Shown here: positions 3,751-48,217 of the stretch, one piece after another
Numbering within the stretch: position 1 is the stretch's first letter
How the letters are laid out: every line of letters starts with the position of its first letter
Origin: Lachnospiraceae bacterium
GTDB lineage: Bacteria; Bacillota; Clostridia; Lachnospirales; Lachnospiraceae
Length of the DNA: 52,536 bases
Reading direction: 5' to 3'
NCBI GenBank assembly: GCA_024692905.1
Contig: JAILLY010000032.1
Coordinates: 1 to 52,536, forward strand
Notes under the pieces: generated by a model
Seen by the model: only the letters and a program-made list of their open reading frames with translations
What the model was told of the DNA's origin: nothing
Database searches by the model: none
Position numbers and translations under genes: made by a program

Positions 3751-6126
3751 ATGGAAGGTTCAACTCTGAAGAACAATATAACGATATCCGTGCGCGATCT
3801 TGTGGAGTTCATATTAAGGTCGGGCGATATAGATAACCGCAAAAAAGGCGGCCGCCAGGACGTCGCTCTCATGCTCGAGGGCGCCAAGATCCACCGCATG
3901 ATCCAGCAGCGCATGGGAAGCGATTACAGCGCCGAGGTATATCTTAAGAAAGTCATCGAACTTGACGGCTTCGATATCGTCATTGAGGGCCGTGCCGACG
4001 GGATAATAAAAAACGGTGACGGATACGTTATCGATGAGATAAAGACCATGTATATGGACCTTGACCGTATAAAGGAACCGATCCCCGTTCATCTTGCGCA
4101 GGCCAAGTGTTATGCCGCGATCTTTTCGGAGCAGAACGATCTTGAAGAGATCACCGTTCGCATGACTTATGTAAACCAAATCAGTTATGACACCAGATAT
4201 TTCCACGAAACTTATACCAAAAAGGAGATAGCAGCCTGGTTTTTTGCCCTTTTGGAAAAGTATGAAAGATGGGCAAGGTTCCGGTTTGAATTTAAGAAGA
4301 TCCGGGATGAGTCGATAGGCGCCGTGTCCTTCCCTTTTGAGTACCGCGAAGGGCAGAAGGAGCTTACCGCGCAGGTATACAGGACGATATATCATTCCCG
4401 CAAGCTTTTTTTAGAGGCCCCGACCGGTACCGGCAAGACCGTGTCTACCGTATTTCCGTCGGTCAAAGCGCTTGGAGAGTCACTCGCGGACAAGATTTTC
4501 TATCTGACGGCCAAGACGATAACGAGGACCGTCGCGAGCGAATGCTTCGATATATTAAGGCAGCAGGGACTAAGGCTTAAATCGGTGATCATCACCGCAA
4601 AGGAAAGGATATGCCCGCTTGAAAAGCCTGACTGTAATCCCGAGGCCTGCGACAGGGCCAGAGGGCATTTTGACAGGATCAATGATGCGATGTATGACCT
4701 AATCACCTCGGCAGATTCACTGACAAGGGAAGTTATCGAGGAATATGCCGAAAGGCACATGGTATGTCCGTTTGAGCTAAGCCTTGATATGTCCCTTTTC
4801 TGTGATGCGGTCATATGCGATTACAATTATGTTTTCGATCCGAACGTATATTTAAGGCGTTTCTTTGCCGATGCGGTGCAGGGACGTTATATCTTCCTCG
4901 TGGATGAGGCCCATAATCTTGTCGGGCGCGGCATGGAGATGTACAGCGCCGAAATGTATAAGGAAAAGATCCTGGAATTAAAGAGGCTTGTAAAGGGCAC
5001 GGACAGACGGCTTGATACTGCGCTCGGGAACGTGAACCGGAAGCTTCTTTCCTTAAAACGGGAATGTGAAAACGTGCTCGTCCTTGACGGAGCGGATGAT
5101 ATCGTGATGGCGTTAAACCGCCTTATGGGAAGGCTTGAGACCTTCCTTGACGAGCAGGAGAAGTTCGCCCATATGGACGAGGTGTGGGACATGTACTTTG
5201 ACGTAAGGCATTTCCTTAACATGTACGGCAACATGGGTGAGGATGATTACAGGATATACTGCGGTTATTCCGAAGAGGGTGATTTTCTCGTAAAGTTAAA
5301 GTGCATAAATCCGAAAAAGTCACTTAGGGAACGTCTTTTAAAAGGCAGGAGCACGATCTTCTTTTCGGCGACCCTGCTCCCGGTCGGATATTATAAGGAT
5401 ATGCTCGGTGCACAGGAAGGCGATTATGAGGTTTATGCACATTCGGCCTTCGATCCCGGAAAGCTGGGGCTGTTCATAGCCGGAGACGTGAGCACGAAAT
5501 ATACCAAAAGGAACAGGACGCAGTATGGCAGGATCGCCGGTCACATTTCCGCGATATGCGGTGCAAGGCCCGGTAATTATATGGTGTTCTTCCCGTCCCA
5601 TGCATTCCTTCTTAATGTTTACAATGCATATATCGATGATAACCCCAATACGGATGCAAGGATCATAGTCCAGAAGAATGTTATGACGGAGAGTGAAAGG
5701 GAGGATTTTCTTGCCGAATTTGAGAAGGGGGAAGGAACCCTTATCGCTTTCTGCGTGATGGGCGGGATATTTGCCGAGGGTATAGATCTTAAGAACGACA
5801 GCCTTATCGGTGCGCTTGTTGTCGGGACCGGACTACCGATGGTATGCGAAGAACGGAGGATACTTAAGGAAGCCTACGATGAGCAGGGACTTGACGGATT
5901 TGATTATGCGTACAGATACCCGGGAATGAACAAGGTCCTCCAGGCGGCGGGGCGCGTTATAAGGACAGTCGATGATGTCGGGGTGGTCGTGCTCCTTGAT
6001 GAACGTTTTACTCTGGGCGAGTATATACGGATGTTCCCGAGGGAGTGGAAGTCAAGGGAGATGATAAATGTTGATAACGCTGCCGAAAAGATCGGAAGCT
6101 TCTGGGATAAGTGGTACGGATGTTAG
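3751..6126 (+). CDS. DinG/Rad3-like superfamily 2 DNA helicase with N-terminal PD-(D/E)XK nuclease domain
   Basis: 791 residues. The N-terminal part (about 10-150) carries RecB/Cas4-type nuclease motifs: GAKIH, Asp83 in GRADG, the Asp95-Glu-Ile-Lys98 catalytic cluster and QAKCYA. The helicase follows, with Walker A PTGTGKT at 224-230 and a DEAH box at 385-388. A Cys cluster lies between them (ICPLEKPDCNPEAC, then MVCPFEL) like the 4Fe-4S site of XPD/DinG helicases. C-terminal helicase motifs include a QAAGRVIRT-like box (seen as LQAAGRVIRTVDD) near residue 730. It should unwind DNA 5' to 3' and cut it during repair of blocked forks or R-loops (inferred from DinG/XPD). No ribosome site precedes the ATG; the promoter position suggests a leaderless mRNA. 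Nothing downstream appears co-transcribed. Confidence 0.85.
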   Translation: MEGSTLKNNITISVRDLVEFILRSGDIDNRKKGGRQDVALMLEGAKIHRMIQQRMGSDYSAEVYLKKVIELDGFDIVIEGRADGIIKNGDGYVIDEIKTMYMDLDRIKEPIPVHLAQAKCYAAIFSEQNDLEEITVRMTYVNQISYDTRYFHETYTKKEIAAWFFALLEKYERWARFRFEFKKIRDESIGAVSFPFEYREGQKELTAQVYRTIYHSRKLFLEAPTGTGKTVSTVFPSVKALGESLADKIFYLTAKTITRTVASECFDILRQQGLRLKSVIITAKERICPLEKPDCNPEACDRARGHFDRINDAMYDLITSADSLTREVIEEYAERHMVCPFELSLDMSLFCDAVICDYNYVFDPNVYLRRFFADAVQGRYIFLVDEAHNLVGRGMEMYSAEMYKEKILELKRLVKGTDRRLDTALGNVNRKLLSLKRECENVLVLDGADDIVMALNRLMGRLETFLDEQEKFAHMDEVWDMYFDVRHFLNMYGNMGEDDYRIYCGYSEEGDFLVKLKCINPKKSLRERLLKGRSTIFFSATLLPVGYYKDMLGAQEGDYEVYAHSAFDPGKLGLFIAGDVSTKYTKRNRTQYGRIAGHISAICGARPGNYMVFFPSHAFLLNVYNAYIDDNPNTDARIIVQKNVMTESEREDFLAEFEKGEGTLIAFCVMGGIFAEGIDLKNDSLIGALVVGTGLPMVCEERRILKEAYDEQGLDGFDYAYRYPGMNKVLQAAGRVIRTVDDVGVVVLLDERFTLGEYIRMFPREWKSREMINVDNAAEKIGSFWDKWYGC

Positions 6127-6163
6127 ATGCGGTCATATTTATTGTTATATTTAACGGAAATTC

Positions 6164-6192
6164 TTGAATACACCGGCCCGTTATTGTATAAT
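6164..6192 (+). promoter_or_regulatory. Sigma-A promoter of the chemoreceptor gene
   Basis: TTGAAT at 6164-6169, a 17-bp spacer, and TATAAT at 6187-6192. The predicted start is near 6199, about 30 nt before the ATG. Confidence 0.75.
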
Positions 6193-6228
6193 ATTTCTTA
6201 ACATTCTTATGCGATAAGGGGGTAGTAC

Positions 6229-7920
6229 ATGGCTAAGAGATCAAAAGAAAAGAGTGACGTTTCATTCCTTAATTCAATCTGTTTCAAGATCATCATGCTT
6301 ATCGTTGCATCGATGGTGATCGCGGTATTTGTTGTTTTGCTCCTGACCGTATCGAGGTTTAGGAAGTCGATGAATACCCAGACCGAGACCCTTCTTCTCT
6401 ATATGGCCGACAGTGAGAAGAGCGAGATAGATGCCCAGACCGGCGGCGTGGTCCAGATGATCGAGAATTATGCGGAGATACTGGATCCGGTTACGGTAGA
6501 GGGTTATGATACGATAAACTTCATCCTGATGACGGGAGAAGGTTTCGTTAAGTATTCCAAGAACGGTTATCTCCAGGGAGAGGATGTGACCATTCCCGAG
6601 TTCTTCGCCAAACATGAAGAAGGCGGGACCGGGAACTTCGAATATAAGCTTCCGAACGGTGAGCCGCGCATGGCTGCTTACTCGGTACTTAAGTGCGGAT
6701 GGCTCCTTGTAGCGGATGTATCGAAGGCCGAAGTCATGGGCAAGGCCGATTCCATAAGGAATTCCGCAATAATCGTCGGAGTCATCGTGCTCATAATATG
6801 TGTGGCTATAGCCTATGTATTAAGCCTTATGATCGTAAATCCGATCAAGATGCTCACGGATGTCATAAAGAGGACGAGTGAGTTCAATTTCAGAAAGAGC
6901 AAGAGAGCGGATAAGCTTTGCAAGCGCCATGACGAGAGCGGTGATATGGCAAGGGCCGTTGTACTTATGAGGGCCAACCTCGCCAAGATAGTCGGCAGCA
7001 TTGAGAATGCCAGCACGAAGATCGACGGCAACGTAAACCAGCTGCAGGATGTTACAAATGTGGTCAACAACATGTGTACGGATAATTCCGCGACGACCCA
7101 GGAACTTGCCGCAGGAATGGAAGAGACCGCTGCCACGACCGAGAGTATCTATGCAAATATCGGATATATGAAGAGCGGAGCCGATGATATCACGAAGCTT
7201 TCGGAGAACGGAGACGCCCTTAGCATAGAGGTTATGGACCGCGCCAACGCATTAAGGGATAAGACGATCGATGCAACGAGAAGGACGCAGGAAACATATA
7301 ATTCCGTCAAGATACGTTCGGCCAATGCCATTGATGACAGTAAGGCTGTCAGCAAGATAAATGAGCTTACCGAAGCGATCATGTCCATATCCTCGCAGAC
7401 GAGCCTGCTTGCACTGAACGCGAGCATCGAGGCTGCAAGGGCAGGCGAAGCGGGACGCGGGTTCGCCGTCGTCGCTACCGAGATCGGACATCTTGCCGAG
7501 CAGACATCCAAGTCCGTAACCGATATCAACGGAATCGTCGGTGAAGTTAACGCGGCCGTTGCGAACATGACATCATGTCTCGAGGAGACCACGGCCTTCC
7601 TTGAGGATACGGTACTTAACGATTATAAGGAATTTGCCGAGGTCAGCGAGCAGTACAGTTCCGATGCCGTTGAATTCAAGCGCAGCATGAATGATGTACA
7701 TGAATCGATAATTAACCTTGCCGATTCCATATCCAAGATATCGGATGCCATGTCGGGCATCACTTCCACTGTCGGAGAGTCAACACTCGGCGTTACCGAT
7801 ATTGCAGATAAGACCGAGGACATGGTATCAAGGACTTCCGAGACGAACGATCTTGTCATTGAGAGCTTACAGTGCGTAGAGCAGCTTAAGTCCATCGTGG
7901 GTGAATTCATTATTGAATAG
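6229..7920 (+). CDS. Methyl-accepting chemotaxis protein (transmembrane chemoreceptor)
   Basis: 563 residues in the classical layout. TM1 is at about 17-44, followed by an extracytoplasmic sensor of about 140 residues that looks like a small Cache-type domain ([26 protein letters not shown]). TM2 is at about 183-207, then a HAMP segment and a long coiled-coil signalling domain. The highly conserved hairpin tip that binds CheA/CheW is present ([19 protein letters not shown], then GRGFAVVA). It should sense an extracellular ligand and control the CheA kinase, hence motility. The ligand cannot be told. AAGGGGG lies 6 nt before the ATG. The gene stands alone between its own promoter and terminator, and no other che or flagellar gene is in the window. 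Confidence 0.95.
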
Positions 7921-40260: not shown

Positions 40261-40357
40261 TAAACACGAGGGAATGAATAATGCAGAAGGGGACCTCGAC
40301 TATCCTGGTCAATCTACAGTATTCAGAACACATATACTGAAAGGGGAATCGGTAAAT

Positions 40358-43015
40358 ATGCGTTCTCATACGTGCACGGATAATATGCGGTCTGAGGGTG
40401 GCCGCATATTTCGTCATTTAATGCTTCCGGTGCTTGCAGCTTCGCTGATCGTCACCGGTACGCGATCAACATATGCATATACTGCGGTAAAGGGTACCGT
40501 AACCTGCTCGAGCGGTAAGGTCAGAAAGGATGCTTCCACGTCTTCGTCTTTTTCTTTCGGAGTACGCAAGGATGAGGAAGTCACCATCATCGACGAGAAG
40601 AAGGGCAGCGACGGTAAGACCTGGTACCGTATCAAGGTCGGAGAGAGTACGGGTTATATAAGGTCCGATCTTGTGAACAAATCCAAGCAGGCAGTCAAGG
40701 ACGGCAGCGCATCAAAGCAGCCGGCCGAGGCGAAGAGTTCTTCCGCAACGGGTATCGTAGCGGTCGACCTCGCGATCATGAGGGAACAGGCCTCGAAAAG
40801 CGCCGAAGTGACTGTATGTCTTAAACAGAACTCCGAAGTCGAACTTAAGGAATCGGTAACCGGACAGGACGGCAAGGTATGGTATCTTGCGACCTGCAAG
40901 CGCGGTGACTATATATATAAGGGTTATATAAGGTCCGATCTTCTCAAGGTAAACGGTAAGGTTGCGGCGGCTTCAGCGTCACCGGCATCATCGTCATCGG
41001 GAACCACCCCGGCGGCTTCATCGGATGTACAGGTGGGTACCGTCAAGGGCCAGGGCGTAAACGTAAGGGAAACGGCTGTTGACGGCAAGGTAATAGGAAG
41101 AGTTTCAAGCGGACGTGCCGTGACTGTCACCGAGCAGGTGGCCGGAAGCGACGGCAAGGTCTGGTACAAGATATCATTTACAAGTAATCTTACCCCGCTT
41201 GTGGGGTATATACGATCCGATTTCGTGGAGGGCGTGACCGCAAAGATCACGGCGGATGCGTCGTCCCCGGGAACGGGAGGCGGAAGCGATACCGCAAAGG
41301 AGGCGCCAACGTCCGGTAAGATGGGCGCAGTAAACGGTATCAATGTGAACGTCCGAGAGGAGCCCGTTAACGGGCAGGTGGTCGCCAAGCTGAATTCGGG
41401 AAGCACGGTCACGATCCTTAAGGAGACGGATGGATCGGACGGGCGCAAATGGTTCGAAATATCCTTTAAGATAAACGGGTCTGATCGGTCAGGTTATATG
41501 CTGGCCGATTTTGTTAAGGAAGAAGAAAATAAATCGGATTATACCGATGCCCTTGTCGCAACCGTCAGAGGATCGGGAATAAGGATACGTGAGAGTGCCG
41601 TCAACGGAACGGTCGTCGAACAGCTCAACTCGGGACACAGGCTTAACATCATAGGCGAGACGACGGGAAGTGACGGCATGAAGTGGTATTATGCGGACTT
41701 TACATGCAGGGGCGTCGAGAAGAAAGGTTACATCAGATCGGATTTCGTGATCATCACCTCGACCACGGAGAGCGTCAAGGTCAGTTCAGATGCGGAATTT
41801 GAGGAGCAGATCGCCAAACTTCCCGACAGCTATAAGAGCAACTTGAGAGTCATGCATGAGAAGTACCCCAACTGGAAGTTTGAAGTTGTGGAAACCGGGC
41901 TTGACTGGAACGAGGCCGTGGCAGCCGAATGTTCGGTCGGCAAGAACCTTATAGCGAAAAATTCGATCTCATCATGGAAGTCGACGGAACCCCAGGCATA
42001 TAACTGGTCGAGCAATGAGTGGTACGGTTTCGACGGCGGGACATGGGCATCCGCTTCAAGGGAACTCATATCATATTACATGGATCCGAGGAATTTCCTT
42101 GACGAGAGCGGCATTTACCAGTTTGAGACGCTCGACAGCCTCGATTACCAGAACGAGGACGGCGTAAGGAGGATAATAGAGGGTACATTCCTTGATTCTT
42201 CCTTCACCGATAACGACGGTACCGAGAGGAACTATGTCGATGCGATAATGGAAGCGGCAAGAAACGCAGGCATCAGCCCTTACCATCTTACAACGAGGAT
42301 ACTCCAGGAGCAGGGGATCTACGGAAGGTCCCAGAGTATCTCGGGCACGATGTCCGGACATGAAGGCTTCTACAATTATTTCAATATCGGAGCGTATGCG
42401 GCAAACGGCAAACTTCCGGTCGAGAACGGACTCATATATGCGGCCCAGGCGGACGACCAGTTCATGAGGCCCTGGAATACGAGGTTCAGGTCCATATCGG
42501 GAAGCGCACTCTTTGTTGCGGACCGGTATATAAAGAGGGGTCAGAACACTCTGTATTTCGAGAAGTTCAACGTGGTGAACAAGGATAACGGTATCTACTC
42601 ACACCAGTACATGAGCAACCTTCAGGCAGCCTCTTCCGAGTCGGCCAGAATGAGAAAAGCATACACGGATACGAATTCAACACTTGTGTTTAGGATTCCT
42701 TACTATTATAATATGCCTGATGTACCTTGTGAGAAGCCTACCGGTGAATCGAACCCGAACAACTACCTTTCATCTGTAACGGTAGACGGATTTGCGATAA
42801 CTCCGGGCTTCAATGCAGCAACCAACGTATACTATCTTACCGTGGATAATACGGTAACTTCAATAAACGTAAACGCAACTGCGGTTGCTTCAACTTCAAG
42901 CATAGGAGGTACCGGTAATATTAATCTTGAGACCGGTACGAATACCGTGGCGATAGTGTGCAAGGCCCAGAACGGAAACACCAGGACCTATACGCTATAC
43001 GTGCAGCGGAATTGA
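40358..43015 (+). CDS. Secreted SH3b-repeat beta-N-acetylglucosaminidase (autolysin) with C-terminal cadherin-like domain
   Basis: 885 residues from the ATG at 40358, placed 11 nt after AAAGGGG. The in-frame ATG at 40274 is nearly at the transcription start and would put the signal peptide 60 residues in. The signal peptide ends near TYA-YT (about 42). Five bacterial SH3 repeats follow (about 43-105, 125-190, 225-290, 320-385, 400-462), each ending in a GYIRSDL/F-like motif, for wall binding. A glucosaminidase of the GH73/LytB type lies at about 480-760; RILQEQGIYGRSQ carries the likely catalytic Glu651. A cadherin-like beta-sandwich (SSVTVDGFAITPGFNAATNVYYLTV) ends the protein. It should cleave peptidoglycan glycan strands outside the cell. 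The next gene follows after 13 nt. Confidence 0.88.
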   Translation: MRSHTCTDNMRSEGGRIFRHLMLPVLAASLIVTGTRSTYAYTAVKGTVTCSSGKVRKDASTSSSFSFGVRKDEEVTIIDEKKGSDGKTWYRIKVGESTGYIRSDLVNKSKQAVKDGSASKQPAEAKSSSATGIVAVDLAIMREQASKSAEVTVCLKQNSEVELKESVTGQDGKVWYLATCKRGDYIYKGYIRSDLLKVNGKVAAASASPASSSSGTTPAASSDVQVGTVKGQGVNVRETAVDGKVIGRVSSGRAVTVTEQVAGSDGKVWYKISFTSNLTPLVGYIRSDFVEGVTAKITADASSPGTGGGSDTAKEAPTSGKMGAVNGINVNVREEPVNGQVVAKLNSGSTVTILKETDGSDGRKWFEISFKINGSDRSGYMLADFVKEEENKSDYTDALVATVRGSGIRIRESAVNGTVVEQLNSGHRLNIIGETTGSDGMKWYYADFTCRGVEKKGYIRSDFVIITSTTESVKVSSDAEFEEQIAKLPDSYKSNLRVMHEKYPNWKFEVVETGLDWNEAVAAECSVGKNLIAKNSISSWKSTEPQAYNWSSNEWYGFDGGTWASASRELISYYMDPRNFLDESGIYQFETLDSLDYQNEDGVRRIIEGTFLDSSFTDNDGTERNYVDAIMEAARNAGISPYHLTTRILQEQGIYGRSQSISGTMSGHEGFYNYFNIGAYAANGKLPVENGLIYAAQADDQFMRPWNTRFRSISGSALFVADRYIKRGQNTLYFEKFNVVNKDNGIYSHQYMSNLQAASSESARMRKAYTDTNSTLVFRIPYYYNMPDVPCEKPTGESNPNNYLSSVTVDGFAITPGFNAATNVYYLTVDNTVTSINVNATAVASTSSIGGTGNINLETGTNTVAIVCKAQNGNTRTYTLYVQRN

Positions 43016-43028
43016 GAAAGGAGTCTGT

Positions 43029-45644
43029 ATGATACGGACAAGGATGAAACTTTTGGGCGCAGCCTTAACTGTGGCGGCATTGCTCGTTATCCCGGGGGTA
43101 CGTGCGTTTGCAGCCGGCAGTGTTACCGTCACGGCCGATAAAGAGACGGTTCCCTCAGGGGAGAAGTTTGTGGTTTCATATAAGGCCGAGAGCGACGGAG
43201 ACGGAGGGGAAGCTCCCGAGATTTCCGTCGAATACGATGAGAACAGGCTGGTCGTTATGGAGTGCGACAAGGAATACGGCGGAGGCGGCGGCAAGCTGAC
43301 CTTTACCGACACCGAGGCAGCCATCACATTCGGAACGCTTTCGGGCGGTCCGGCTGAAGTATATGTAACGGCGATACTTGACGGCGATGGCGGTGAACCC
43401 GCTACCGGAAGCGTTACCGTGACTGTTGACGGTGAAGATACCGTTGCGGCGGCGGATGCGGGAGAGTCAGCTCCGGCAGCATCATCAACCGGTGTTGCGG
43501 CAGGTACCGTAATGTCGCTTGACGGGACCAAGGTCATCTCTACGGTCTTCCCGGACGAGATGATGCCCGAGCTTTTCCATAAAACGACTGCATCATACAG
43601 CGGAACGACAATAGAAGCCGCGCAGTTTGATATGAAGGAAGATATCATGCTCGTTTACGTTACCGATGAGGCAACGAATACAGGCAGTTTCTGCATAATC
43701 GATCCGCAGAGCGGTGAACTCAGTGATTTCAGAAGGATAAGCGGCATTGAGAACAGGTTCATAATTGTCTTAAAGGCTCCCGAAAATGTTGAAGTACCGC
43801 TCAATTTCACGAAGGCGACCCTTCAGTGGAATGACCAGACGCTTGAGGCATACAAGATCGTTTCGGAAGATTCGGATGAATCCGCCGAAGCATCACTTGC
43901 ATATGAAAATAACGGAGTATCGTCGGAGCAGTTCTTCTTAGTATATGCCATAAGTTCTGACGGCAACCAGGGCTGGTATCTGTATGATTCTGCCGAAGGC
44001 ACTTATCAGAGGTACCTGCAGGTCATAAGGGCGGCGATAGATGATGACGGCGATAAGATGCCGATAACCGAGGCAGTTGCCAAGGCGGCCTCAGAGAAGT
44101 ATGAGAAGCCTCTGTTCATAAGGCTCATAATCATCGGCGTGCTCGGACTCCTTGCACTCATCCTGATAATCGTTGTGATCGTACTGGCCGTGAAGCTCAG
44201 CCATGCGGAGGATGCAGCATACGATAATGATGAGGAATATGATGATTATCCCGAACCCGTCCCGGTAAGACGCAGGAGGCGTTACGAAGAGGACGAGGAG
44301 GAAGATGAGGACGAAGAGGACGACGAAGAAGACGAAGAGGATGAAGAAGACGACGAAGACGATGAAGATATAGAAGACGACGAAGAGGATGAAGAAGACG
44401 AGGAAGAAGAGGAGGAGCCTGAGGATGTGAAGCCTAAGGCACCCGCAAAGCCCGCTCCGGGATCAAAGCCCGTGATCAAGGCCAAGGATATAGCCGAGTG
44501 GCAGATGAACAATGATTCCGATGATGTCTTCAAGCCCCGCAAGAAGAAGAAACGCAAGGACGAGCCGTTCAGTGAGCCGCAGGCGATAGACTGGTCCGAG
44601 ATGGAATCCGTTGTAAGGAATGCGGCTTCCGACTCAAGACGTCCTACCGGAAACAATACGAGCAGCCTTCCTCCGAGATACAGGGGAGAAGAGCCGGACG
44701 CCGACGAAGAAAAGAAGGGCGCAGCTGAAGAAAAAGCAGCCGTGACTCCGAAGATGGCACCCGTTCCCGAGAAGAAAGCGCCTGCCGCAGAGGCAGTCCG
44801 GGGTGAAGCAGGTGCAAACAGAGTCGCACCTTCGGTATCGATCCCCACGCCGGAAGCAGTACGTCCGGTAATGAAGGCTACACCGATCGTTCCCGCAAAT
44901 ATGCCCAAGAAGGCCGGATTCCCCGGTGAAGAACCCGAACCCGCGCCCACTCCCGCAGAGGAAGTCAAGGCCGAGAAGAAGGGTCTCTTCGGAAGGAAGA
45001 AGGGTCTGTTCGATATAGACGAAGACGAGCTTGAGGATGACGATAAGGACGAAGGCTTCAGCTTCTTCAGGAGGGACAAGAAGAAGGTTCCCGAGCAGGT
45101 TCAGAAGCGTTCCGAGGAAAAGGCTCCCGAAACGCCTGCACATGACGGCGGATACGGTTACGGCCAGGGCTACCAGCAGCAGGGATACGGCAATAACGGC
45201 CAGTACCAGAACCAGTATCCCGGCCAGGCTCAGCAGGGTTATGTAAACCAGGGCTATCAGCAGCAGGGCGCTCAGGGTTACCAGCAGCAGGGATATTACA
45301 ATAATCAGTATCAGGCGCAGGGCCAGAATCAGGGACGTCAGGGTTATGTAAACCAGGATTACCGTCAGCAGGGCGGCCAGGGATTTGCAAACCGCGGATA
45401 CGATCAGGGTTATACAGGTCAGGGTTACCAGGGTTATAACCAGAATTACCAGCAGGGTTACGGCCAGGGCTACCAGCAGGGTTATCCTCAGGGCTATGAC
45501 CAGGGTTATCCCGGAAACGGTTACCAGGCAGGCGGAATGAACATGGCAGGCGGTCTCCAGTATCAGGAATATCCGCAGCAGACCATGTATAACACAGCGG
45601 ATTTCGATGAGGATTTTGAATTCGAGTTCCTGAATGTTGATTGA
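43029..45644 (+). CDS. Single-pass membrane protein: cohesin-like outside part, acidic tract and prion-like cytoplasmic tail
   Basis: 871 residues. The signal peptide ends at AFA (about 29). An outside beta-rich region, cohesin-like in look (SVTVTADKETVPSGEKFVVSY), spans about 30-135, and a second outside region about 160-355. One TM is at 366-390. Then, inside, come an RRRRR cluster (414-418), a Glu/Asp run of about 50 residues (420-469), a Lys/Arg patch (KPRKKKKRK), Pro/Ala/Glu linkers, a repeated KKGLFGRKKGLFD motif and a long G/Q/Y/N-rich region (706 to about 850). An acidic-aromatic end (FDEDFEFEF) closes it. I know no function for this whole. The composition of the tail is that of proteins that form condensates. 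It is co-transcribed with the glucosaminidase, so a wall-linked role is plausible. Confidence 0.8.
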   Translation: MIRTRMKLLGAALTVAALLVIPGVRAFAAGSVTVTADKETVPSGEKFVVSYKAESDGDGGEAPEISVEYDENRLVVMECDKEYGGGGGKLTFTDTEAAITFGTLSGGPAEVYVTAILDGDGGEPATGSVTVTVDGEDTVAAADAGESAPAASSTGVAAGTVMSLDGTKVISTVFPDEMMPELFHKTTASYSGTTIEAAQFDMKEDIMLVYVTDEATNTGSFCIIDPQSGELSDFRRISGIENRFIIVLKAPENVEVPLNFTKATLQWNDQTLEAYKIVSEDSDESAEASLAYENNGVSSEQFFLVYAISSDGNQGWYLYDSAEGTYQRYLQVIRAAIDDDGDKMPITEAVAKAASEKYEKPLFIRLIIIGVLGLLALILIIVVIVLAVKLSHAEDAAYDNDEEYDDYPEPVPVRRRRRYEEDEEEDEDEEDDEEDEEDEEDDEDDEDIEDDEEDEEDEEEEEEPEDVKPKAPAKPAPGSKPVIKAKDIAEWQMNNDSDDVFKPRKKKKRKDEPFSEPQAIDWSEMESVVRNAASDSRRPTGNNTSSLPPRYRGEEPDADEEKKGAAEEKAAVTPKMAPVPEKKAPAAEAVRGEAGANRVAPSVSIPTPEAVRPVMKATPIVPANMPKKAGFPGEEPEPAPTPAEEVKAEKKGLFGRKKGLFDIDEDELEDDDKDEGFSFFRRDKKKVPEQVQKRSEEKAPETPAHDGGYGYGQGYQQQGYGNNGQYQNQYPGQAQQGYVNQGYQQQGAQGYQQQGYYNNQYQAQGQNQGRQGYVNQDYRQQGGQGFANRGYDQGYTGQGYQGYNQNYQQGYGQGYQQGYPQGYDQGYPGNGYQAGGMNMAGGLQYQEYPQQTMYNTADFDEDFEFEFLNVD
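44280..44430 (+). repeat. Purine-rich GAA/GAC/GAG codon run encoding the acidic tract
   Basis: About 150 bp made almost only of Glu and Asp codons, giving a strong purine bias on the plus strand. It is inside the membrane-protein gene and could vary in length by slippage or form a triplex. Confidence 0.8.
45150..45530 (+). repeat. Degenerate CAGGGYTAYCAG-type tandem repeats encoding the prion-like tail
   Basis: Many copies of CAGGGTTAC/CAGGGCTAC and CAGCAGGG units in a row, out of strict register. They encode the GYQQQ/GQGY repeats, which suggests growth by unequal crossing over. Confidence 0.75.
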
Positions 45645-45666: not shown

Positions 45667-45730
45667 AAAAAATGGCTCTCATGCCTGCGATATGCAGTCA
45701 GTCCTTCGGGGCGCGGAAGAGTCATTTTTT
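45667..45730 (+). terminator. Terminator between the membrane-protein gene and clpC
   Basis: AAAAAATG-CTCT pairs with AGAG-CATTTTTT (45667-45679 with 45718-45730), enclosing an inner CTGC/GCAG hairpin; a run of six T ends it. The symmetrical A and T tracts would allow termination in both directions. Confidence 0.7.
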
Positions 45731-45769
45731 ATATATATAAGTACCGGACTTATACAGGGAGAGCACAGC

Positions 45770-48217
45770 ATGAATTACACCGAGAAAGCAGACGAGGTAT
45801 TAACTACCGCCCGTAAGATATCCGACTCATATGACCACGGGTATATAGGAACGGAGCATCTTCTCCTGGCATTTATGGAGGAGGGGACTTCGGTCGTTGC
45901 ACAGATACTTAAGAAAAACGAAGTCACCGCAGCTGCCATAAGGGAGCTTATCGATAAGCAGATCGCTCCCGGCGGAGGAGTCATGACGATGGACCGGGGC
46001 GGGTTTACGCCCAAATTAAGCGAGATAATCGACATCGCTTACGAAACGGCGACAGGCATGAACGAAAGCCGCATAAGCACGGAGCATCTTCTTATTGCCC
46101 TCATAAAGGACGGCGATAATCTTGCGGTCAGGATATTGAATACAATGGGTGTAAATATCCAGAAGCTGTTTGTTGACATCCTCATGGCGATCGGAGAGGA
46201 CGTAAACAAATACAAGGAACAGATACAGGGATCCCGCCAGAGTGCGGGCAAGGGCGTTCAGAGTCAGATGCTCATAGAAAAGTACTCAAGGGATCTTACG
46301 GAACTTGCGCAAAGGGGCAGGCTCGATCCGGTCATCGGACGTGAGGTCCAGATCCAGCGCATCGTCCAGACATTAAGCCGCCGCACGAAGAACAATCCGT
46401 GTCTCGTAGGCGAACCCGGTGTCGGCAAGACCGCGATAGTAGAAGGTCTTGCAAGGAGGATAGCGGAAGGGAGCGTGCCCGAGAGCGTCCAGGGCAAGCG
46501 TCTTCTGACTCTCGATATGGCATCGATAGTGGCAGGCACCAAGTACAGGGGCGAGTTTGAGGAACGCATAAAGAAGATAATAAATGAGGTCATAGAGAAC
46601 AAGAATATCATACTCTTCGTTGACGAACTGCATACGCTCATAGGAGCCGGCGGAGCGGAGGGGACCCTCGATGCTTCGAATATACTAAAGCCCTCGCTCT
46701 CACGCGGTGAGATCCAGCTTATCGGTGCAACGACGCATGATGAGTACAGGAAATATATCGAGAAGGATGCGGCGCTTGAGAGGCGTTTCCAGCCGATATC
46801 GGTAGAAGCACCCGGCCTTGAGGAATCAGTTGAGATACTTAAGGGCATAAGAGGGGTATATGAGGAGCATCACGGTGTTGTCATACCCGATGAAACGGTC
46901 GAAGCCTGTGTAAGGCTGAGTGACCGGTATATAAGCGACCGTTTCCTGCCCGATAAGGCGATCGATCTTATGGACGAGGCTGCGGCCAAGTTAAGGATAA
47001 GGGATCTCCCTTCGCTTGATGCCTTAAGGGAGATCGAGGATGAGCTTGACGGAATAGAGGAAAAAAAGGAAGAAGCCTTAAGGCTTGATGATCTTGAGGG
47101 CTATGCCGCTCTTAAGACAGAGCAGGAAAGGCTCGAAAAGGAATATATACGGACCAGGCTTAAGAACAGGGTGAAGGCGCGCAGGAACTGCACGGTCACT
47201 CCCGACCTGATCGCCGATGTCGTTTCCGAGTGGACGAAGATCCCGATAAAGAAGCTGACCGAGGGTGAGAATGCAAAGCTTAACCGTATGGAGAAGACTC
47301 TTAAGAAGCGCGTGATAGGCCAGGACGAGGCCGTATCCGCGGTCGCAAGGGCAGTAAAGAGGGGAAGGGTAGGCCTTAAGGAGAAGAACAGGCCGATAGG
47401 ATCTTTCCTTTTCCTCGGACCTACGGGCGTAGGAAAGACCGAACTCAGCAAGGCCCTTACAGAAGTCCTCTTTGGTACCGAAAATTCGATGATAAGGGTC
47501 GATATGTCCGAATACATGGAGAAGCACACCGTCAGCAAGCTCATCGGCTCGCCTCCGGGATATGTTGGCTTTGAAGAAGGCGGCCAGTTATCGGAGAAGG
47601 TAAGGCGCAATCCTTATTCGGTAGTTCTTTTCGATGAGATAGAAAAGGCCCATCCCGATGTTTTCAATATACTCCTTCAGGTGCTTGATGAAGGAAACAT
47701 CACTGATTCGAACGGCCGCAAGGTATCCTTTAAGAACTGCGTGATAATAATGACGAGCAATGCGGGCGCGAACCGTATCATAGATCCCAAACATCTCGGA
47801 TTTTCCACGCAGGTGGATAAGGAAGCGGACCATAAGAAGATGAAGGACGGCGTCATGGAGGAAGTCAAGCGGATATTCAGGCCCGAGTTCATCAACCGTA
47901 TCGATGAGATAATAGTCTTCAGATCGCTCGACCAGGATGATATGCAGAAGATCGTGACCCTGCTCACGGACCAGCTTACGGCAAGGATGAAGGAGGAGCT
48001 TAATGTGACTCTTACCGTGACCGCATCCGTCAAGAAACATATCGCACTTAAGGGGACGGATAAGAAGTTCGGAGCAAGGCCTTTAAAGCGCGCGATCCAG
48101 ACGATGCTTGAGGATAAGCTTGCCCAGGACGTGCTGGACGGATACATAACGGAGGGCAGCAAAGTACGCGTTACCCTTAAAAAGGGAGAGATAGTGACAG
48201 AGGTTTCAGAGGACTGA
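45770..48217 (+). CDS. clpC: ATP-dependent Clp protease ATP-binding subunit ClpC
   Basis: 815 residues from the ATG at 45770 (GGGAGAG before it). ClpC is a Hsp100 AAA+ unfoldase that feeds proteins to ClpP. The N domain has two Clp repeats (about 1-145). AAA domain 1 has GEPGVGKT and the FVDELHTLIGAGGAEG loop. The short M segment (about 395-460) is a coiled coil. AAA domain 2 has LGPTGVGKTELSKAL, SEYMEKHTVSKLIGSPPGYVG and DEIEKAHPDVFNILLQ. The mcsA, mcsB and ctsR genes that often precede clpC are absent, and no CtsR- or CIRCE-type operator is visible. Placement before radA is common in Firmicutes. Confidence 0.96.
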   Translation: MNYTEKADEVLTTARKISDSYDHGYIGTEHLLLAFMEEGTSVVAQILKKNEVTAAAIRELIDKQIAPGGGVMTMDRGGFTPKLSEIIDIAYETATGMNESRISTEHLLIALIKDGDNLAVRILNTMGVNIQKLFVDILMAIGEDVNKYKEQIQGSRQSAGKGVQSQMLIEKYSRDLTELAQRGRLDPVIGREVQIQRIVQTLSRRTKNNPCLVGEPGVGKTAIVEGLARRIAEGSVPESVQGKRLLTLDMASIVAGTKYRGEFEERIKKIINEVIENKNIILFVDELHTLIGAGGAEGTLDASNILKPSLSRGEIQLIGATTHDEYRKYIEKDAALERRFQPISVEAPGLEESVEILKGIRGVYEEHHGVVIPDETVEACVRLSDRYISDRFLPDKAIDLMDEAAAKLRIRDLPSLDALREIEDELDGIEEKKEEALRLDDLEGYAALKTEQERLEKEYIRTRLKNRVKARRNCTVTPDLIADVVSEWTKIPIKKLTEGENAKLNRMEKTLKKRVIGQDEAVSAVARAVKRGRVGLKEKNRPIGSFLFLGPTGVGKTELSKALTEVLFGTENSMIRVDMSEYMEKHTVSKLIGSPPGYVGFEEGGQLSEKVRRNPYSVVLFDEIEKAHPDVFNILLQVLDEGNITDSNGRKVSFKNCVIIMTSNAGANRIIDPKHLGFSTQVDKEADHKKMKDGVMEEVKRIFRPEFINRIDEIIVFRSLDQDDMQKIVTLLTDQLTARMKEELNVTLTVTASVKKHIALKGTDKKFGARPLKRAIQTMLEDKLAQDVLDGYITEGSKVRVTLKKGEIVTEVSED

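Follow-up and report, generated by a model that had tools for sequence, protein, structure and literature searches.

A candidate membrane adaptor for wall enzymes in Lachnospiraceae, carrying a prion-like tail in one genus

In Staphylococcus aureus, the cited passages of PMC10581084 describe SpdC, a homologue of CAAX proteases, as the membrane scaffold of the SagB glucosaminidase in a peptidoglycan release complex. Dockerin-containing wall hydrolases have already been reported from Ruminococcus, together with the idea of a "lyticome" (PMC6403190, cited part), and the passages cited from PMC10906006 name SpmX and PodJ of Caulobacter and Rv1747 of Mycobacteria as integral membrane proteins that condense via disordered or regulatory cytoplasmic regions. 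For FUS, the effect of tyrosine changes depends on their number and not on their position (PMC5704491, cited passage), and the human TMEM132 family combines cohesin and Ig domains in membrane adhesion proteins (PMC6030884, cited passage). The present work concerns a stretch of 52,536 nucleotides from a Lachnospiraceae bacterium (GCA_024692905.1, contig JAILLY010000032.1), hereafter the window, and one of its genes, hereafter X, which encodes a membrane protein next to a wall hydrolase. As far as titles, the starts of abstracts and cited passages go, no description recognised as the X family was found in the open-licence literature of PubMed Central.

The reading that we favour, with a probability of roughly 0.55, is that X is a single-pass membrane adaptor for Lachnospiraceae wall enzymes whose cytoplasmic end serves for docking. 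Its ectodomain, composed of a cohesin-fold domain and a core domain particular to the family, would hold the wall enzyme of the neighbouring gene, and in many genera would do so through a cohesin-dockerin contact with a glucosaminidase; inside, the long disordered tail would end in a conserved acidic-aromatic motif docking a putative cytoplasmic partner, whose position would thereby set the site of wall cleavage. The tyrosine-rich prion-like stretch of the tail in the window's genus may in addition provide multivalent self-association and bring adaptor molecules together in clusters. The observations from which we argue are the domain order, the predicted disorder, the pattern of conservation, the gene linkage and, in other genera, the linkage of dockerins with X. 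Besides the signal peptide X has one transmembrane segment (TM), its ectodomain is beta-rich, and a topology with the ectodomain outside and the tail in the cytoplasm is predicted from the sequence with moderate confidence. The layout described by an earlier sequence-only reading (signal peptide, beta-rich ectodomain, TM, RRRRR, acidic run, Lys/Arg patch, G/Q/Y/N tail and acidic-aromatic end) is present in full (Table 1), and the interpretation built on it, a condensate-forming tail near sites of wall cleavage, is partly supported.

The first clue was a glucosaminidase adjacent to X that ends in a dockerin. A dockerin was found in 25 of 51 hand-chosen genomes; 16 of the 25 have it beside X, and 13 of these 16 yielded no other dockerin. 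A second set, a block of 80 consecutively numbered genomes (G061-G140), overlaps the hand-chosen set and includes five known positives (G077, G079, G108, G110 and G123); 32 of its genomes gave a dockerin match (31 over cut-off). In 19 of them the dockerin is encoded upstream, on the strand of X, and in 18 no more than 160 bases separate it from the X match; in the remaining one, G133, it is 1.4 kb from X, in an open frame of 716 amino acids (aa) that reaches towards X. Where a block genome has a single dockerin, that dockerin is beside X in 15 of 24 cases. At the 16 dockerin loci inspected the dockerin sits on the glucosaminidase (for G170 by coordinates), and the other 14 block dockerins beside X were placed by coordinates and strand only. 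Since the dockerin is carried by the glucosaminidase just upstream of X, X probably docks a wall hydrolase in many genera; for the genera with a dockerin, docking of the glucosaminidase is strongly indicated. Three of 13 genomes searched (G380, G281 and G077) have a single over-cut-off cohesin, located in X, and a single dockerin next door. Pfam Cohesin (E 0.01) was matched in 9 of 16 X proteins with a dockerin-bearing partner versus 2 of 13 beside a dockerin-less glucosaminidase (Fisher p 0.052), and versus 4 of 32 members of the window's genus even at E 0.1 (p 0.004). G090, which has an X-linked pair, contains a second dockerin (C17:136079-136831) immediately next to a hit that covers the N-terminal portion of profile A3.

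Structural modelling gives the N-terminal domain of X a cohesin fold. The AlphaFold model of the ectodomain and TM, from 32 sequences, has a mean predicted local distance difference test score (pLDDT) of 82, and its N-terminal domain resembles the cohesin-like structure 2jh2 with a TM-score of 0.58-0.59 of target (Foldseek ranks 2-4), rank 1 being an antibody at 0.30; five of the 50 rows are cohesins. Distant X members exceed the Pfam Cohesin cut-off (PF00963; L108, L131, L130 and L140), and of the 13 genomes searched eight contain a cohesin over cut-off, which lies within X in six (G380, G281, G077, G065, G381 and G382). A search of solved structures with the 32-member ectodomain alignment returned a weak cohesin match only (E 0.035). 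A Cadherin-like domain occurs in other X members, with or without a recognised cohesin. The N-terminal domain is missing in four genus members (L056-L059), all of them included in the 32-member alignment, and all 26 invariant columns of that alignment fall in the core domain, for which no Pfam or NCBIfam match over cut-off was obtained in the window X or 10 relatives. Over its whole length the window X took no Pfam or NCBIfam name, its matches lying below cut-off and mostly over the TM and the acidic tract.

The neighbourhood of X also favours the adaptor reading. Among 32 loci of the window's genus the upstream gene is a glucosaminidase in 26, an SH3-only gene in three and PurD in three; at 40 loci from other genera, hand-chosen from the ectodomain profile matches and mostly high-scoring, it is a glucosaminidase in 14, a LytR-CpsA-Psr gene in 14, a ChW-glucosaminidase in one and a gene for a sulfatase-domain protein in one, the remaining 10 comprising PurD (2), a contig end (1) and other or unidentified open reading frames (ORFs; 7). 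Taken together, 59 of 72 X loci have a wall-related upstream neighbour (40 glucosaminidase, 3 SH3-only, 14 LytR-CpsA-Psr, 1 ChW-glucosaminidase, 1 sulfatase-domain). These figures bear on the alternative that X is a surface adhesin or wall-binding anchor unrelated to the hydrolase, with a cohesin fold serving other ligands. Cohesin and cadherin-like folds are indeed widely used, and some cohesin-bearing X proteins belong to genomes that yielded no dockerin; against this stand the wall gene upstream of X in 59 of 72 loci and the dockerin encoded beside X in 15 of the 24 single-dockerin genomes, and we regard the adhesin as improbable.

In the window, the glucosaminidase has 913 aa, matches the SagB model NF052642 weakly (56 bits against a cut-off of 425), and its gene ends 13 bases upstream of X. 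The sequence-only reading had placed X in an operon with it; the short gap agrees, and promoter-like and terminator-like sites at the operon borders are in no excess over shuffles (8 vs 8.7 and 8 vs 7.7), so that co-transcription is argued from the 13-base gap. In L041 and L048 the glucosaminidase match upstream of X is split over two open frames, which could reflect a frameshift, a misassembly or two separate genes. X lies directly downstream of LytR-CpsA-Psr in L104, L107-L110, L113, L114, L116, L123, L131-L133, L137 and L138, and glycosyltransferase and GlmS genes are often found near these loci.

Table 1. Coordinates of X, its parts and the flanking genes in the window.
Feature	Coordinates	Strand	Evidence
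X, whole gene: 871-aa single-pass membrane protein	43029..45644	+	ORF; ectodomain profile matches in 238/397 family genomes
X signal peptide, residues 1-28	43029..43112	+	Sequence, AFA|A at end; model helix 2-23
X cohesin-fold domain, residues 29-136	43113..43436	+	AlphaFold, most blocks pLDDT 82-96; Foldseek
X core ectodomain, residues 159-330	43503..44018	+	All 26 invariant columns of ectodomain alignment
X transmembrane helix, residues 363-390	44115..44198	+	Sequence and model
X RRRRR cluster, residues 414-418	44268..44282	+	Sequence
X acidic tract, residues 419-468, 45 D/E of 50	44283..44432	+	Sequence
X KPRKKKKRK patch, residues 502-510	44532..44558	+	Sequence
X short conserved motif DWSEMESVVRNAASDSRRPTGNN, residues 521-543	44589..44657	+	D521 invariant in 26-member alignment
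X GFSFFRRDKKKVP, residues 676-688	45054..45092	+	Kept in the window protein's own clade
X prion-like G/Q/Y/N stretch, residues 703-846	45135..45566	+	Composition, predicted disorder, Tyr spacing
X acidic-aromatic C-terminal motif DFDEDFEFEFLNVD, residues 858-871	45600..45641	+	Invariant columns in 26 complete genus members
Wall hydrolase next to X: five SH3_3, SagB/autolysin-like glucosaminidase region, C-terminal Cadherin-like domain, no dockerin match	40274..43015	+	Profile scans
ClpC-type AAA+ ATPase directly downstream of X	45692..48217	+	Profile scan; role in the X system conjectural

The cytoplasmic end of X is conserved in its own right. In the alignment of the 26 complete genus members, the invariant tail columns are D860, D862, F863, F865 and, away from the C-terminus, D521 only. 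An ending of acidic and then spaced hydrophobic residues was found in 64 of 83 complete members (the cut L207 was dropped) versus 9 of 1163 other ORFs from these stretches, a total that counts spurious frames; an earlier version of the pattern had matched 56 of 72 members, truncated ones counted, versus 5 of 1697 others, among which was one fragment of a family member. The C-terminal patterns, like the dockerin script patterns, were composed after members had been looked at. Of the 19 members that the pattern misses, eight end like DDTFKVDFIDLD or DDYQVNFVDI and four like IMDLNDL, two come near (L215 and L220) and five do not fit (L140, L141, L216, L217 and L218); many X proteins linked to LytR-CpsA-Psr end in a variant such as DDTFKVDFIDLD. 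Binding of a putative partner by the C-terminus is suggested with moderate confidence. A second conserved tail motif, DW..ME...RRP.G at 44589-44657 of the window, was matched by a loose pattern in 22 of the 26 complete genus members (in L058 probably by chance), and the four matches of the loose pattern in the 40 members from other genera are unlike the genus motif.

ClpC, followed by RadA, lies downstream of X in the window, and the conserved C-terminus could accordingly be read in another way, with X as a membrane-tethered client or adaptor of ClpC whose C-terminal motif or tail engages the ATPase, coupling the state of the wall to regulated proteolysis. At all 26 genus loci whose contig extends beyond X, ClpC lies downstream; among the 40 loci from other genera, nine have it directly after X, and disordered C-termini are typical for AAA+ engagement. 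However, the 12-13 kb covered at each of the 14 loci linked to LytR-CpsA-Psr gave no ClpC match, though a related C-terminus is present there, and since clpC-radA is a common Firmicutes block, the linkage of X with ClpC may be positional. We consider a ClpC-centred role improbable.

Several observations weigh against the adaptor reading and should be set beside the evidence given so far. In 13 of the 32 dockerin-bearing block genomes the dockerin is not beside X, and the contrast of 9/16 with 2/13 in cohesin matches is at the edge of significance. G065 and G382, which yielded no dockerin, also have cohesin-bearing X proteins, beside LytR-CpsA-Psr genes. The Foldseek rows for the N-terminal domain other than cohesins are nearly all antibody chains, at or below 0.33. 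The C-terminal pattern is missed by 19 of 83 complete members, five of them by any reading, and 13 of 72 loci show no recognised upstream wall gene (5 PurD, three of these in the genus, 1 contig end and 7 other ORFs). At the window's locus, X does not match PF00963 over cut-off despite its cohesin fold and the glucosaminidase is without a PF00404 dockerin match; no dockerin was seen at the other loci of the genus by pattern scan, with a Pfam search for L042 only. In this genus the dockerin-less enzyme has either lost the domain or never gained it, and a partnership between X and the glucosaminidase of the window is proposed with moderate confidence from common descent and linkage.

The two dockerins of the window's genome sit on other contigs, C50 and C77, with cohesins nearby. 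On C77 of G000 a cohesin (1138-1695) shares an open frame with the dockerin, and on C50 a cohesin (5955-7072) lies in a frame near the dockerin; these cohesins and dockerins may form a small scaffoldin system unrelated to the X locus.

Regarding the tail, the prion-like stretch contains 37 G, 42 Q, 13 N and 26 Y in 144 residues (82% G/Q/N/Y), with four D/E and three K/R. The best 80-residue segment of X holds 37 Q/N and 70 G/Q/N/Y, the next-best value among 36 plus-strand window ORFs of more than 150 aa being 29 G/Q/N/Y per 80. By the criterion of at least 30 Q/N in 80 residues, prion-like composition is reached by X and by 5 of 26 complete genus members overall; the PAPA-type score of the X tail is 0.135 vs a threshold of 0.05, and it exceeds 0.05 in 12 of 15 genus members with a G/Q/Y tail and in none of 11 without. 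AlphaFold, with 26 full-length homologues, places 391 of the 461 residues from 400 to 860 in segments of pLDDT below 50 and the rest mostly at 50-60; the only helix of any length spans residues 522-534, with pLDDT in the mid-50s. The high Q/N and PAPA-type scores and the lack of a confident tail fold both agree with the sequence-only reading.

Within its genome the tail stands alone. The four QGYxQGY-coding sites found are all within the X tail, searches for its pattern and for the C-terminal one elsewhere in the genome led back to the X gene only, and the last 62 residues of X gave no other match in the genome better than E 0.38. A simple DNA-repeat artefact was rejected as the sole cause of the tail, because Tandem Repeats Finder arrays within the stretch match at 70-76%, Gly and Tyr codons are mixed and the composition is common to 15 genus members, though all 42 Gln are encoded by CAG.

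Comparison among relatives was based on the 26 complete members of the genus, six of its 32 loci (L039, L060, L062, L063, L065 and L066) being truncated where a contig ends within the TM or tail; low-complexity DNA may therefore break assemblies, and tail types may be under-sampled. A G/Q/N/Y-rich stretch occurs in 15 of the 26 (53-73 per 80), the other 11 having 13-20 per 80, while the 40 loci from other genera all lack it (maximum 38 per 80; the 18 later loci L207-L224 are outside these scores). As it is present in 15 of 26 genus members and 0 of 40 others, the stretch is an add-on, a replaceable module at genus level and not the core device of the family. In a clade of 10 (L045, L048-L053, L055, L059 and L061) a charged tail with QQQRIE takes its place ahead of the same C-terminus, a ready comparison for experiments on the prion-like tail. 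The motif FSFFRR is kept in 7 of 26 complete genus members. An acidic tract (at least 29 D/E in 50) is found in 17 of 26, independently of the G/Q/Y tail, and on a 34-row ectodomain tree, made by a quick method and with several weak branches, each of the two features requires two changes, on different branches. Coacervation between the polyacidic tract and the polybasic patch, as once suggested for X, is weakened by this independence.

What is kept in the 15 G/Q/Y tails is Tyr content (13-18%) and a mean aromatic spacing of 4.2-5.9. In 14 of them the aromatic residues are more evenly spaced than in at least 97.8% of 2000 shuffles, the exception being L043, for which 1920 of 2000 shuffles were as even. 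Between the window protein and four deep relatives the ectodomains are 41-49% identical and the tails 33-40%, within the shuffled range, while in six closer pairs tail identity is above every shuffle; composition and spacing are thus kept where sequence is not. The expected conservation held for composition and even Tyr spacing in relatives, and it failed for the stretch as such, which, among the 26 genus members and 40 others compared, occurs in part of the genus only.

An inert soluble spacer, whose composition drifts under demands of length and solubility and which has no clustering role, would account for the unconserved tail sequence at deep distances, for the charged substitute in the clade of 10 and for the absence of the stretch in all 40 members from other genera. 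Such a spacer would not need 13-18% Tyr at a spacing of 4.2-5.9 in all 15 members, nor an evenness that beats at least 97.8% of shuffles in 14 of the 15, and the feature persists between proteins whose ectodomains are only 41-49% identical; even spacing could, however, also arise from the growth of repeats alone, and the spacer is a possibility to be taken seriously, if less probable than the adaptor. Selection on tail composition is likely, not proven, because repeat growth could have contributed to the spacing. The kept composition and spacing fit a multivalent self-association of the tail, from which clustering is plausible, though unproven, and condensation a tentative suggestion. Still less probable is the complete clustering device, in which an external receptor (in many genera a private pair of one cohesin and one dockerin) would hold the glucosaminidase and a tail of Tyr stickers would condense under the membrane with a partner bound to the C-terminus, setting where the wall is cut.

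The abundance of tyrosine, 26 in 144 residues, also admits a phosphorylation platform for bacterial tyrosine kinases (BY-kinases), by likeness with capsule kinases, which carry Tyr clusters. The kinase family TIGR01007 is over cut-off in 27 of 37 genus genomes, the window genome included, and it occurs in 10 of 15 genomes with a G/Q/Y tail and 8 of 11 without, which shows no association; the BY-kinase link was rejected on this ground, and we give the platform the lowest standing among the explanations.

X belongs to a widespread family. A protein search gave X matches in 33 of 36 other genomes of the same genus, one of them spurious (in G021 the match is low-complexity with stops, its locus L067 gave no X, and it was not counted), and the matching protein-search records are Lachnospiraceae. 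A profile of the ectodomain matched 238 of 397 Lachnospiraceae genomes and 204 of 334 genera, part of the 238 covering only part of the profile; across the order 20 of 196 genomes matched, 13 in the same family and seven in three others, with several matches covering only the N-terminal domain or the TM end. The family layout consists of a cohesin-fold domain, an unclassified core domain, a TM, a disordered tail and usually an acidic-hydrophobic C-terminus, and its more general parts are the ectodomain (cohesin-fold and core), the wall gene next door and the extreme C-terminus.

An odd low-complexity tail has in this way led to an unnamed family with testable parts, probably anchoring a wall hydrolase. 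Lachnospiraceae are major bacteria of the gut and rumen, and to our knowledge the control of their wall hydrolases is little studied. With X and the glucosaminidase, cohesin-dockerin docking probably serves a purpose other than the degradation of plant fibre, and the genus offers a natural experiment on a bacterial prion-like tail, with 15 complete members that have the stretch and 11 that do not.

Compared with the systems named at the outset, X resembles each in part. Like FUS-type sequences its tail is rich in Gly and Tyr with evenly spaced Tyr, and it differs from them in being bacterial and membrane-tethered, with few Arg and no RNA-binding domain matched. For TMEM132, as far as the cited passage describes it, the parallel is architectural only. 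The statement that no characterised bacterial protein of this layout is known needs softening in view of SpmX, PodJ and Rv1747, which the cited passages of PMC10906006 present as integral membrane proteins condensing via disordered or regulatory cytoplasmic regions; X, an integral membrane protein with a long predicted-disordered and predicted-cytoplasmic region, is alike in this respect, its domains differ, and its condensation is conjectural. With cohesin-dockerin systems X shares the cohesin fold and, in other genera, the dockerin on the adjacent hydrolase. Cellulosome scaffoldins carry several cohesins and carbohydrate-binding modules, whereas X has one cohesin-fold domain in a tailed membrane protein, often beside the only dockerin found in its genome, with no carbohydrate-binding module matched over cut-off and no scaffoldin array at the locus. 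The SpdC family is characterised by a CAAX-protease-like domain with several TMs; X differs in its single TM, cohesin-fold ectodomain and long disordered tail, and family scans of X gave no CAAX-protease-type match. The likeness lies in the arrangement of a membrane protein partnered with a SagB-type glucosaminidase, the hydrolase of the window matching the SagB model only weakly, and SpdC-SagB is, of the systems found, the nearest functional precedent for a membrane protein that partners a SagB enzyme.

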